In this document: piece by piece, positions 15,288 through 54,972 of the stretch
Layout: each line of letters starts with the position of its first letter
Position numbering within the stretch: position 1 is the stretch's first letter
Source of the DNA: Haloglomus litoreum
GTDB lineage: Archaea > Halobacteriota > Halobacteria > Halobacteriales > Haloarculaceae
NCBI RefSeq assembly: GCF_029338515.1
Contig: NZ_CP119988.1
Location: 806,001-870,000, forward strand
Direction of reading: 5' to 3'
DNA length: 64,000 nt
The notes under the pieces: model-generated
Told to the model about the DNA's origin: nothing
Database searches by the model: none
What the model saw: the letters and a program-made list of their open reading frames with translations, nothing else
Made by a program: the position numbers and the translations under genes

Positions 15288-15923
15288 TCACTCCCCGAGC
15301 CGGTTCCGGATGCGCTCGCGGTCCACCGCCGCCGGCGGGAGGTCCGCGACCGGGAACCACCTGGCGGCCTCGAGTTCCGGCCGGCCGTCGGGGAGCCGGT
15401 GGTCGGGCCGGTCGGCGAGCGCGCCGCCGGTCGCGCGGGCGGTGAACACCGCCATCGGGACCGTGAGCGGGTCGCCGGCGGCGTACCGGTGCTCGACCAG
15501 CCGGCTGTAGAACAGGCCCGTCAGCTCGATGTCCAGTCCCGTCTCCTCCTCGGTCTCGCGGATCGCCGTGGTCGGCAGCGACTCCCCGGGCTCTGCCGCG
15601 CCGCCCGGCGACACCCAGCCGTCGGCGTAGGTCCGCTTCACCAGCACCACGTGCGGGCTCGCCGGCGCGTCCGCGCGGTCGTCCACGACGACGGTCCCCC
15701 CGACACCGGCGAGCAGGGCGCGCTGCTCGGCGACGGTCCCGGGCGGCTCGTCCGGGTCGTGTCCGCGGGGCCCGAACGGCAGCGGCTCCAGTCGTGGCCC
15801 CGGCCCGTACGACTCCTCGACCCGCTCCAGCGTCGACAGCGCCTCCGCCCGCAGGCGCTCGCGGAGGTCCGGTCCGCCGCCCGTGGGCTCGTCAGCCCCG
15901 GTCGTCTCGTCGGAATCGCCCAT
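15288..15923 (-). CDS. Nudix hydrolase
   Basis: A 211-residue protein. The Nudix box GGAAEPGESLPTTAIRETEEETG fits GX5EX7REUXEEXGU with all glutamates present. The domain spans about residues 70-200. It is preceded by a helical segment (LRERLRAEALSTLERVEESYG) seen in haloarchaeal Nudix proteins. It should cleave a nucleoside diphosphate linked to another group; the substrate is unknown. ATG 15923 is the first start before the helix. It is divergent from the MgtE-type gene. Confidence 0.9.
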   Translation of the reverse strand: MGDSDETTGADEPTGGGPDLRERLRAEALSTLERVEESYGPGPRLEPLPFGPRGHDPDEPPGTVAEQRALLAGVGGTVVVDDRADAPASPHVVLVKRTYADGWVSPGGAAEPGESLPTTAIRETEEETGLDIELTGLFYSRLVEHRYAAGDPLTVPMAVFTARATGGALADRPDHRLPDGRPELEAARWFPVADLPPAAVDRERIRNRLGE

Positions 15924-16056
15924 ACACGCCCCTGGGCCGCGCGCCACGTGAGCGTTCCCGGAGCCGCGTTTGTGTATCGGAGGTGACAGGACTTCGCCGG
16001 ACGGATCGTGGCGCCCGGGTTGAAGTGGGGTGGCCCCGACGGCTCGAACCAGAACG

Positions 16057-16641
16057 ATGGGTGTGCGCGAGGTGGCCGGCGAGGCGTACCGCGAGGCGCT
16101 GCCGGCGCTCGCCGCATCGGCCGTCGGCGGCCTGCTCGCTGGCCTCGTCCTCGGCGGGATGCGTGGGGACCTGGCCCGTGTGAACGGCCTCCTGGTCCTC
16201 ATCCCCGCGCTGCTCGCCACGCGGGGCAATGTCTACGGCTCGCTGGGCGCCCGCATCGCCACCGGCCTCCACCAGGGGCTCGTCGAACCACGCGTGACCG
16301 CGGGCGACGAGCGGCTGCGCGCCGCCGTCGCCGCCGCCATCGGCAACGGCCTGCTCGCCAGCCTGTTCGCCGCGACGGTCGCCTTCATCATCCTGTCGCT
16401 GCTCGCACAGTCCCCCGAGCCGCTGCCCGTCCTCGTGGGCATCGCGCTCATCTCCGGGCTGCTCTCGGGCATCGCGCTCTCGACGGTCGTCGTCGTCGTC
16501 GTGTTCGCCGGCTACCGCCGCGGTCGGGACCCGGATACGCTCGTGGGGCCCGTCGTCACGACCGCCGGCGACGTGTTCGGGCTGACCTTCCTGCTGCTGG
16601 CGGTTCGGATCGTCGTCGGCGCGCCAGGGGGTGGTGTGTGA
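16057..16641 (+). CDS. MgtE-type (SLC41) magnesium transporter, membrane half 1
   Basis: A 194-residue integral membrane protein equal to one MgtE membrane domain. Conserved segments are PALLATRGNVYGSLGARIATGLHQG and, at the end, RGRDPDTLVGPVVTTAGDVFGL, where the acidic and polar residues line the cation pore. There is no cytoplasmic N or CBS domain, as in the archaeal stand-alone MgtE-domain proteins, which occur in pairs. It likely moves Mg2+ or another divalent cation together with the 17193-17753 product. In-frame ATG 16030 is an alternative start. Confidence 0.85.
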   Translation: MGVREVAGEAYREALPALAASAVGGLLAGLVLGGMRGDLARVNGLLVLIPALLATRGNVYGSLGARIATGLHQGLVEPRVTAGDERLRAAVAAAIGNGLLASLFAATVAFIILSLLAQSPEPLPVLVGIALISGLLSGIALSTVVVVVVFAGYRRGRDPDTLVGPVVTTAGDVFGLTFLLLAVRIVVGAPGGGV

Positions 16642-16716
16642 ATGCGGTTGCTCGGGGGGTCCCGACGGTGTTGCTCCCACGGTGTGTGCGTACGACGGCG
16701 GCCACCAGCAGTCCTG

Positions 16717-16837
16717 GGAAGGGCGAGCGCTCTCGGCGAAGGCGGGCGACACAAGCACCGCAGCCCCCGCGCGAGCGGAGCGAGCGCGGGGGCGAGGAGC
16801 GCAGCGAGCCCCCCGAGCCGAGAGCGCTCGCCCTTCC
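16717..16837. repeat. 121-bp element bounded by 21-bp inverted repeats
   Basis: Positions 16717-16737 are the exact reverse complement of 16817-16837. The 79 bp between them hold two hairpins with the GAGCGNAGCGA motif. It looks like a miniature palindromic element. No transposase is present and I could not assign a target-site duplication. Confidence 0.7.
16764..16792. repeat. Hairpin with exact 11-nt GAGCGGAGCGA loop (copy 4)
   Basis: A perfect 9-bp stem, CCCCCGCGC (16764-16772) with GCGCGGGGG (16784-16792), and loop GAGCGGAGCGA (16773-16783). A partly overlapping hairpin (16788-16793/16808-16813) has GAGCGCAGCGA in its loop, so the two are mutually exclusive. Confidence 0.85.
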
Positions 16838-16865
16838 ATTCCGCCAGGAGGTCGGCTCCCGAATG

Positions 16866-16901
16866 TCGCGTCCACACCGTGCCAGCTCGGTGTGGACGCG
16901 A
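16866..16901. repeat. Strong 13-bp-stem hairpin
   Basis: Positions 16866-16878 pair perfectly with 16889-16901 around a 10-nt loop (16879-16888). Part of it (16879-16894) can instead pair perfectly with 16923-16938, so two exclusive folds exist. Confidence 0.8.
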
Positions 16902-17041
16902 CCCTCGGAAGCCGAGGAGCGACACACCGAGCTGGCACAGTGCGTCGCTCCGCTCGACATCCGATCTTCGGGTGGGAATGGAAGGGGCAGCGGGCTCGAC
17001 CCGGCCCCGGCGACGCAAGGACCGCATCCGCATGCCCGGAA

Positions 17042-17069
17042 CGACGGGTGAGCGTCAGCGAACCCGTCG
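17042..17069. repeat. Hairpin with 12-nt GAGCGTCAGCGA loop
   Basis: A perfect 8-bp stem (CGACGGGT 17042-17049, ACCCGTCG 17062-17069) encloses GAGCGTCAGCGA, a one-base-longer form of the shared loop motif. Confidence 0.75.
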
Positions 17070-17192
17070 CAGCCCGGAACGGGAGGACCGCAGCGAGTCG
17101 CGGCCGGTCGAGCCCGCCGGGGCTTCCTACAGGTCGTCCTCCTCGCTCGGGTCTCCGTCTCCGTCACCACGGTCGGAGGTGACTGTCCCGTA

Positions 17193-17753
17193 ATGCCGAC
17201 CGAGTGGACCGTCCGCGCCATCACGCGCGCCACCCTGCCCGTCCTCCTCGGGCTCACCCTCGTCGAACTGGTCAGCGGGCTCGTCCTGGGCTCCTTCGAG
17301 TCGACGCTGCTGCAGTACCCCTCGTTGCTGGTCCTCGTGCCCGTCACCATCGGGACCGCCGGGAACCTCGGGAGCGTCCTCGCCTCGCGGCTCTCGACGG
17401 CGTTCCACCTGGGGACGCTGTCGTTCGCGCCCGACGACGACCGCCTCGCCGGCAACGCGGTCGCCACCGTGCTGCTGGCCCTGACCCTGTTCCCGTTCGT
17501 CGGCGGCGGCGCGTGGCTGCTCCAGTCGGTCGTCGGCGGCACCCGGCTGGCCCTCGCGCGGGTCGTGCTGGTGGCGCTGGTCAGCGGGGCTGCCCTCGCC
17601 GTGCTGGCCATCGTCGTCACGCTCGTCGCCACCTACATCGCCTACCGGCAGGGGCTCGACCCGGACGACGTGGTCATCCCCGTCGTCACCAACGTCTGCG
17701 ACGTGCTCGGGGTGGTGGTCCTGTTCCTCGTGGTCGTGCTGCTGGTGCCGTGA
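17193..17753 (+). CDS. MgtE-type (SLC41) magnesium transporter, membrane half 2
   Basis: A 186-residue integral membrane protein, the second MgtE membrane domain. It keeps VLVPVTIGTAGNLGSVLASRLSTAFHLG and QGLDPDDVVIPVVTNVCDVLGVVVLF, the two pore segments with conserved Asn, Asp and Gly. Five membrane helices are expected. It probably forms a hetero-oligomer with the first half, replacing the symmetric MgtE dimer. The long structured spacer upstream is unusual for a subunit pair and may make expression independent. Confidence 0.85.
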   Translation: MPTEWTVRAITRATLPVLLGLTLVELVSGLVLGSFESTLLQYPSLLVLVPVTIGTAGNLGSVLASRLSTAFHLGTLSFAPDDDRLAGNAVATVLLALTLFPFVGGGAWLLQSVVGGTRLALARVVLVALVSGAALAVLAIVVTLVATYIAYRQGLDPDDVVIPVVTNVCDVLGVVVLFLVVVLLVP

Positions 17754-17885
17754 CCGGGCGGTGTGCGCTCCATTATCGGATAATATGTGGTATTATGCGT
17801 GAAAACGTTCTACGAGTGTATAATTGGGGCAGTAGTGGACAAAAAGTCCGGTTTGGATATCCCTGCCGGCTGCCCGGCCGACCCA

Positions 17886-18050
17886 TCACCCGTCCGGCCC
17901 CTCGATGTCGCGGAGGAGTTCGAGAACGATGTCCGGCGTTCCGCGGTCGACGAGCGCCTCGAGCTCGGCGACCTGCTCGCCGGTCAGGAGTCCCTCCTCC
18001 CCGTAGGCCCTGACGAGGTGCTTCGTCGCCTCCGTCTCCCACCGGTTCAT
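17886..18050 (-). CDS. Small helical protein (54 aa)
   Basis: MNRWETEATKHLVRAYGEEGLLTGEQVAELEALVDRG..., 54 residues, acidic and almost all helix, with no Cys and no membrane segment. It begins 10 bp after the stop of the zinc microprotein 18061-18204 on the same strand, so the two form a likely operon. ATG 18050 is used because the longer upstream frame overlaps that gene. Function unknown. Confidence 0.6.
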   Translation of the reverse strand: MNRWETEATKHLVRAYGEEGLLTGEQVAELEALVDRGTPDIVLELLRDIEGPDG

Positions 18051-18060
18051 GGCTAGCACC

Positions 18061-18204
18061 TCACCTGCCTCCCGGTCCCCGGACCCGGGACCGGGACGCT
18101 CCGGTGAACGAGTGGTCGCACACGGGACAGTAGAAGTCCTCGAGGTCACCGGCGAGCGGGATTGGGTAGGCGGCCGACGAGCGGCAGTACGGGCAGTAGG
18201 TCAT
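18061..18204 (-). CDS. Zinc-finger microprotein (47 aa)
   Basis: Read on the minus strand from ATG 18204: MTYCPYCRSSAAYPIPLAG..., then DFYCPVCDHSFTGAS and a basic tail, stop at 18061. CPYC and CPVC, about 20 residues apart, are a classic four-Cys zinc ribbon. With 47 residues it is shorter than most gene finders report. It is followed after 10 bp by the 54-residue helical protein. A short inverted repeat (TCACC/GGTGA, about 18211-18224) just upstream could be an operator. Confidence 0.62.
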   Translation of the reverse strand: MTYCPYCRSSAAYPIPLAGDLEDFYCPVCDHSFTGASRSRVRGPGGR

Positions 18205-18364
18205 CGTTATTCACCAGATGGTGATAGGCTGGCTACCCGGATGGCTGTGTCTACGGTTCCCAAATATTGGGGTGCTGATAGTTCCTGTTCCCGACCGGTC
18301 CGGACTGTCCGATGGTCCGTGTGTGCGTGGGCGTCGCAGTACCGGGTCCGCCCAAAGCCGGATG

Positions 18365-18550
18365 TCAGTCGCTCGCCCACCGTGCCTCGACGCGTTCGAC
18401 GAGCGAGAGCGAGGCGACGAACAGTGCCAGCGGTGCGATGTAGAGGCCCGCCTCCGCGAGCGGGACGAGCGAGCCGGCGGGCCAGAGCGCGACGAGGAGC
18501 CCGACCACCAGCACGAGTGCGAGGTGGTTGCGGCCGAGGGTCCGGTGCAT
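18365..18550 (-). CDS. Small membrane protein (61 aa)
   Basis: MHRTLGRNHLALVLVVGLLVALWPAG..., 61 residues with two hydrophobic helices (about 10-28 and 33-50) and a charged end LVERVEARWASD. It matches the size and look of conserved haloarchaeal two-helix membrane proteins, but I do not know its role. It is divergent from the large transglutaminase operon. Confidence 0.6.
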   Translation of the reverse strand: MHRTLGRNHLALVLVVGLLVALWPAGSLVPLAEAGLYIAPLALFVASLSLVERVEARWASD

Positions 18551-18712
18551 ACCCACCGTTCGAAGCGGGCGACCCTATCCGCCCGGGCCACCGCGCCGGG
18601 CGGCCGACGCACCGGGCCAAGACGGGACTTTATGACGGGTTCGGGCGGTGACGGCGGCGGCGTCCGTCGGTCACCCAACACAGTTAGTACGCCGGAGACA
18701 CCAGCCCCGGCA

Positions 18713-29007: not shown

Positions 29008-29589
29008 GGCCTCCCTTGGGCGTCGAGCGACTTAGCCGCCCGGTCGCGGCGGCGGCCTTCGGACGGGGATCCGTGATAGGGGCGTTGTGCGTCTGTAGCG
29101 ATTCGTTCGGTGAGGATGGCAGAGGCGACAGCGAGGGCAACGGATTATTGAAAGCGCCCGCGGGCTCGGGGACCCGCGACTCGCTGTCGTTCGAAAGGCG
29201 GCGGAGCCGCCTTTCGTGATGACGAGAGACGCCAGAGGCGTCTCTCGAACCACGGTCCTCGGTCGCTACGCTCCCTGTGGTCCTTGCTTCGTCGGGGCAC
29301 CGCCGTCAGAGCAAGCTCTGACGCGGTCTCGTTCGCTTCGCTCACGAGACCGCCGAGCCCACGGCCCCTTTCAGTCCCACCCGATTCGGTTTCTCAGGGT
29401 CGTTTCACACCGTACTGGCTTGGTGCGTCGCTCCGTGGACCGGGCCATCCCTTCCAACGGTCTCGACGTCCGAGCCAGGTGATACAGCGGTTCGGTACAC
29501 ATCCCGAACCGGCTCGTGACGCGGTCCATCGGAGCGAGGCAGCGCAGGAACTATGCGCCCGGCCGCGAAGCTCGACACGGGGTGATGAC
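29008..29589. other. Gene-free hairpin cluster
   Basis: 582 bp without a credible gene. Four perfect hairpins follow one another: 29192-29216 (10-bp stem), 29223-29247 (11-bp stem, loop AGA), 29305-29322 (8-bp stem, loop AA) and 29323-29353 (10-bp stem). A further one is at 29488-29511 (8-bp stem). The reverse-complement loop motif TCGCTACGCTC is at 29263-29273. The structures lie between divergently transcribed genes. Confidence 0.8.
29323..29353. repeat. Hairpin with exact 11-nt motif loop (copy 5, inverted)
   Basis: A perfect 10-bp stem (29323-29332 with 29344-29353). The loop TCGCTTCGCTC (29333-29343) is exactly the reverse complement of GAGCGAAGCGA. Confidence 0.85.
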
Positions 29590-54723: not shown

Positions 54724-54972
54724 GAATATATGATGTATACTCGGTAGAAATTCCTGGATTGCCATATTATCCGCGAATTCTCGAAATATCTTGGATACGC
54801 TTGGTTGGGAATGGAAGGGGGCAGCGGCCTCCTCCCCGTTCCGGACAGCCCCCCATCCGGCAGACCAGCTGGGACAGCCAGGGGATGGCTGTGCCAGTCA
54901 GCGATGTCCGGCTCCCGGATACCGGACCGGCCGGTCCAACGACTGATATGCCCGGCGACCGGAGCGGCACCC
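54724..54972 (+). promoter_or_regulatory. AT-rich leader with hairpin upstream of the RimK-type gene
   Basis: The left part (54724-54800) is AT-rich, unlike its surroundings. 54807-54827 nearly repeats 16974-16993. A hairpin with 7-bp stem (54874-54880/54886-54892, loop GGGGA) follows. The likely TATA is GATATG about 28 nt before ATG 54973. Confidence 0.45.

Follow-up and report, generated by a model that had tools for sequence, protein, structure and literature searches.

The described systems closest to the repeat reported here are the bacterial REP/BIME and REPIN sequences with TnpA-REP (RAYT), which are intergenic, high-copy hairpins, have no coding capacity of their own, and commonly stand as inverted pairs with spacers (available parts of PMC3733652, PMC2817692, PMC3116915, and PMC8266576). 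REP units measure 20–40 bp (PMC3733652, in its available part), and a RAYT gene is linked to them. REPs have also been reported in archaea, in a paper whose accessible portion contains no halophile terms (PMC12306157). For the haloarchaeon Haloquadratum walsbyi, the accessible text of one study (PMC3119063) describes PATEs, which are non-coding and have near-terminal palindromes resembling IS605-type ends, with variable outer 20–50 bp, as well as SMR-A, elements of ~110 bp that have prominent inverted repeats and no known mover, leave no regular target duplication, and insert into PATEs and IS605-type elements. MITEs of archaea and bacteria are small, non-autonomous, and multi-copy elements with empty sites (PMC10969869, in its available part). 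A search of the open literature at the level of titles and abstracts, a weak one with most subscription journals outside its scope, found no description of the hairpin family set out below.

The DNA analyzed (the window) is a 64,000-nt stretch of the Haloglomus litoreum genome. An inverted-repeat search finds two arms of 21 nt at 16717–16737 and 16817–16837 (+ strand), 100% complementary with 79 nt between them. No longer perfect inverted repeat with comparable spacing occurs anywhere in the window (scripted search), and the longest perfect inverted repeat in 30 first-order Markov resamples of the window is 17 nt; the perfect 21-bp inverted ends named in the original prediction are thus real. 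The surrounding 161 nt (16700–16860) fold at −109.7 kcal/mol (z −7.56; 0 of 200 shuffles as low), and the predicted fold contains the nested hairpins said to lie within the ends, with pairing that extends beyond the arms past a bulge. The idea that these 121 bp form a complete element is rejected: they are one hairpin module only, the family model R1 matching 16713–16840 (core reading on the + strand; 64.5 bits, against 22.6 bits on the − strand for 16714–16841), and a second module lies in the same direction at 16976–17130 (+ strand; 82.8 bits), within an insert of ~546 nt.

The insert (16646–17191) separates two MgtE-domain genes, upstream mgtE1 (16057–16641, + strand; PF01769, E 2.1e-21) and downstream mgtE2 (17193–17753, + strand; PF01769, E 1.1e-21), so that its predicted placement inside a transporter locus is borne out. 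The gap between the genes is 551 nt. Besides the two modules, the insert contains a central inverted repeat (16852–16915; two 31-nt arms, 87% complementary) and the 5′ box of the second module, GGGTGGGAATGGAAGGGGC (16970–16988, + strand; 0 mismatches, none expected in shuffles). Congeners G001 and G002 both lack the insert, and their mgtE pair abuts. With window positions 15288–18600 as query, query positions 720–1358 and 1906–2464 are contiguous in the congeners with a 4-nt overlap, and the alignment ends place the missing DNA at 16646–17192. In G002 the sequence of the junction reads as the stop of the first gene followed by the start of the second, and in G001 the empty site follows from where the alignments end and from the projected gap, which is 0. 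The projected gap of the mgtE pair is within 60 nt in 79 of 84 loci (80 from a collection of named species and some metagenome-assembled genomes, and four relatives including G001 and G002, with L136 excluded), 92–181 nt in three, and negative in two outliers (L076 and L105). Given the abutting genes of the two congeners and these 79 short gaps, this lineage has gained the insert.

AATGC occurs on both sides of the insert (+ strand), overlapping the mgtE1 stop at 16641–16645 and the mgtE2 start at 17192–17196; these letters may represent a 5-bp target duplication, which the insert end at 17191 assumes, or could be a chance match at a single site. A Shine-Dalgarno-like GGAGGTGA (17175–17182, + strand), which we take to match the end of the 16S rRNA, lies inside the insert 10 nt before the mgtE2 ATG, and may be a ribosome-binding site brought by the insert itself. 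In G002, GGAGGTG stands at the end of the first mgtE gene, ahead of the second.

The model R1, built from 27 copies of the own genome, gives at least 119 module matches in that genome (E up to 0.01) and at least 101, 113, and 28 in three congeners, which supplies the multiple copies that the original prediction proposed as a check. The same prediction named a single copy, syntenic at constant spacing to the mgtE genes, as the observation that would count against it, and neither the copy number nor the empty site in two congeners agrees with this. A fixed mgtE-linked regulatory element is likewise rejected, given those empty sites and the other copies beside other genes. Across the order, R1 (E up to 1e-6) matches at least 198 of 243 genomes and at least 65 of 74 genera, and at least 34 of 196 genomes drawn from the phylum have a match, all from the order or family of the window; the presence of the modules is lineage-specific. 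All these counts are minima, with 150 candidates scored per genome for the own genome, the congeners, and the named genomes, 14 for the order, and 18 for the phylum. For nine genomes from which individual loci were taken, R1 matches number at least 33 in the metagenome-assembled genome of L105, 30 in Haloarchaeobius iranensis, 27 in Halorarius litoreus, seven in Haloarcula vallismortis, five in Haloferax prahovense, three in Haladaptatus pallidirubidus, two in Halobaculum litoreum, and one in Halostella pelagica; only Halobacterium salinarum has no module among the matches listed. In haloarchaea, the hairpin modules make up a large family of intergenic repeats, scattered and strongly structured. 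A 561-nt stretch has no blastn match in plasmid and phage collections, the 17-nt 5′ box has no exact match in viral contigs, and Rfam assigns no family at the gathering cut-off within window positions 15900–18000, where four matches up to E 1 are all to microRNA families far below it.

The window holds a second, worn member of the family at 29093–29490 (R1 27.5 bits at 29147–29324 and an exact 5′ box at 29364–29382, both on the − strand), with other hairpins nested inside, as well as a third 5′-box match with two mismatches at 54803–54821, where none is expected in shuffles. A 681-kb stretch of the own genome (G000 C1, 1.926–2.608 Mb) has no module among the matches listed.

R1 matches are mostly 105–125 nt long and follow one plan: the outer stem includes a conserved unmatched loop, more stems follow, the core has internal loops that are conserved (AAGSACCGCA / GAGGASCGCAGCGAG), and the tip varies freely. 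The outer stem of typical modules keeps an unmatched stretch, which in type 1 is GGCGA against GAGGG. To judge by their letters, the conserved loops may hold sheared G·A pairs. Across the 27 modules of the own genome, the paired fraction of cells is 97.2% and two-sided change affects 18 of 30 pairs, where shuffles average 80.6% paired and 12.2 two-sided pairs; slid controls reach at most 46.2% paired. In alignment A2, which comprises 56 modules from 44 sources, all from elsewhere except L182 (own genome) and L047 (same genus), the figures rise to 97.6% and 26 of 30 (shuffles, 73.4% and 18.3), this alignment being fitted to the model and the covariation counts taking related copies as independent. 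None of 500 shuffles reaches the observed count of two-sided pairs in either set. A particular pair of the core reads C-G or G-C in all 60 hits (57 distinct modules) to search patterns that prefer G or C at both positions but leave them uncoupled; A2 shows this pair as C-G or G-C in 53 of 54 cases. On this comparative evidence, the predicted fold is conserved across copies. Cells with G·U outnumber those with A·C by 49 to 12 (30 to 12 without one pair), which favors the + strand as the one that folds, with relatedness of the copies weakening the count.

In the usual element, two divergent modules flank a spacer, and short tails extend beyond them. Among the matches listed for the own genome, 42 of 45 neighboring modules within 3 kb are divergent, two point the same way (one being the window copy), and one is convergent; 29 modules are solitary. 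Spacer lengths recur. Within the own genus, modules are spaced at 81–82 nt in a short form (five pairs in one listing, three in another) and at 275–281 nt in a long form that has a conserved center (eight pairs), with other spacings between and beyond. Close pairs in Halorarius litoreus are 37–38 nt apart, edge to edge, in six of seven cases and 146 nt in the seventh; 11 pairs outside the own genus are spaced at 37–38 (five), 33–35 (two), 61–62 (two), and 183–191 nt (two), and pairs of Haloarchaeobius iranensis at 281 and 312 nt. By a crude home-made rule for gene calls, which missed the first mgtE gene and so misread the window copy as divergent, 33 module sites lie in 14 tandem, 10 divergent, 7 convergent, and 2 unresolved gaps (background 54, 35, and 21 for the three arrangements), without clear preference for any. 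At L023 (1890–2690), both module tails form tandem repeats, each unit of which includes the 3′ arm, and modules at L036 and L024 are interrupted by small hairpins or fused to other repeats, with 169 nt at 92% identity between these two loci.

Against this background the window copy is odd in two respects: its modules point the same way, unlike the usual divergent pair, and the 3′ arm of its first module complements the 5′ arm, with loss of the conserved unmatched loop and the usual 3′ end. The right arm (16817–16837) occupies the place of the partly unmatched 3′ arm of typical modules. The two 21-bp arms form the stem of a single hairpin and are not terminal inverted repeats of the element; perfect complementarity between them is a peculiarity of this copy. 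Template switching within a quasi-palindrome could have made the arms fully complementary. With the 3′ arm rewritten as the complement of the 5′ arm and the loop lost, the perfect ends are probably a derived defect, and the copy as a whole, its modules no longer divergent, is probably defective.

Comparison of 20 loci of the own genome with both congeners gives collinear flanks with a module in neither congener at seven (L010, L011, L019, L020, L025, L027, and L034), an intact or collapsed module at four (L015, L023, L038, and L042), and no clear picture at nine; absence is over-represented here, because these 20 of 32 anchored loci were chosen for having no module listed near the anchor or for being unclear. 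Judged by coordinates, one or both congeners carry a module close to the anchor at 11 of the other 12 anchored loci. These shared sites (4 of 20 and 11 of 12) count against proof of current movement. Copies of 457 bp at L020 (1690–2145) and L021 (1689–2145) are 98.9% identical at different sites; their ends match imperfectly in inverted orientation, with no clear target duplication. Congeners also contain 33-nt remnants that consist of arms only, and one pair lacks its center. Junctions at loci other than mgtE are blurred by tens of unrelated bases each, and gain, loss, and replacement are thus not separable there.

In their many intergenic palindromes and predominantly divergent pairs, the modules share the layout of REP/BIME. 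They differ in being three to four times longer than the 20–40 bp given for REP units (PMC3733652, available part) and in having conserved internal loops, in being common to an order of archaea, and in that no RAYT-type gene was seen beside copies: the genome has one PF01797 (Y1 transposase) match, and its 3,348-nt locus contains no module (E up to 0.1). SMR-A is alike in being haloarchaeal and in size, roughly, for the single module, yet what was inserted at mgtE measures ~546 nt and comprises two modules. The description of SMR, in its available part (PMC3119063), sets it apart from modules that lie between ordinary genes, form divergent pairs, and vary considerably in sequence. Insertion into PATE or IS605-type elements is not seen, the window copy lying between mgtE genes and one of ten TnpB loci being near a module. 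Since SMR, PATE, and REP each have at least one defining feature that the modules lack, we file the family under none of them, noting that it is built like a REP dimer.

The original prediction offered a MITE or a REP-type element, and a dispersed multi-copy element is indeed what we find, for which REP-type is the better description. A classical MITE would carry terminal inverted repeats, be moved in trans by a DDE transposase, and leave a target duplication of ~5 bp, here AATGC. This reading fits a small, non-coding, multi-copy sequence, the clean-looking insertion at mgtE with AATGC at both sides, and a weak terminal similarity (5′-CGGTAG-CTG-) at the ends of some short-form copies. We nevertheless regard it as unlikely: the CGGTAG-CTG motif is missing at the right end of the window copy and in many copies, the possible 5-bp duplication at mgtE is the only one recognized among the junctions inspected, no reliable terminal repeat was found, nor a matching insertion sequence at the Y1 and TnpB loci searched, and among the matches listed no cargo is enclosed by any module pair whose starts lie over 723 nt apart. 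The palindromes could alternatively be relics of IS200/IS605-type transposons, moved by TnpA via terminal palindromes; near-terminal palindromes, variable outer ends, and no regular target duplication are features of PATEs as well (PMC3119063, accessible text). Such a link is very unlikely, as the modules are inverted to each other, the single Y1 match lies in a module-free locus, and only one of the ten TnpB loci (L260) has a module, ~1 kb off, which is the L028 copy. Modules as the ends of TnpA/TnpB transposons are thus unsupported, and the Y1 and TnpB loci searched yield no mobilizing enzyme.

There are two further readings. Retention of the modules as a structured RNA, either a small RNA or an untranslated-region element kept for a cellular role and spread by duplication, would account for the order-wide fold with conserved loops and for the excess of G·U on one strand. 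It sits poorly with copies distributed over tandem, divergent, and convergent gaps beside unrelated genes, with copy numbers from 0 to at least 119 among genomes, and with the lack of an Rfam family at cut-off in the region searched, and we consider it quite improbable. Still harder to credit is a duplex DNA site, for an architectural or partition protein, with the hairpins as a by-product: the paired 5′ boxes in inverted order, the repeated spacings, and the lack of matches in plasmid, phage, or viral collections agree with it, but pair-preserving change in variable stems and conserved unpaired loops would be left unexplained, and one of nine named genomes has no module among the matches listed.

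The reading we favor, and hold to be reasonably probable, is that the 121 bp are one module of a non-autonomous, dispersed hairpin-dyad element that inserted between the mgtE genes and is probably recognized as a folded single strand. That strand could be DNA at the replication fork, or RNA. An enzyme supplied in trans would move or copy the module pair into intergenic DNA, with transposition as the route; the high copy number, the empty site, and the lack of coding capacity are most simply explained by dispersal in trans. We further suggest, tentatively, that the modules might be the substrate of an unrecognized haloarchaeal system acting on folded single strands and retained order-wide because it serves the host; this could be an archaeal counterpart of REP/RAYT that has an enzyme of its own, or a SINE-like route with an RNA template. 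Such a system would be recognizable by hairpin dyads in which internal loops are conserved and spacer lengths recur. The dispersed hairpin-dyad reading, if right, would make a good part of haloarchaeal intergenic DNA one structured repeat family, and it poses a testable question: what preserves a hairpin with internal loops throughout an archaeal order, and which enzyme is responsible for its dispersal. At the mgtE site, sister species offer a natural before-and-after comparison for the effect of such an insert on an operon.
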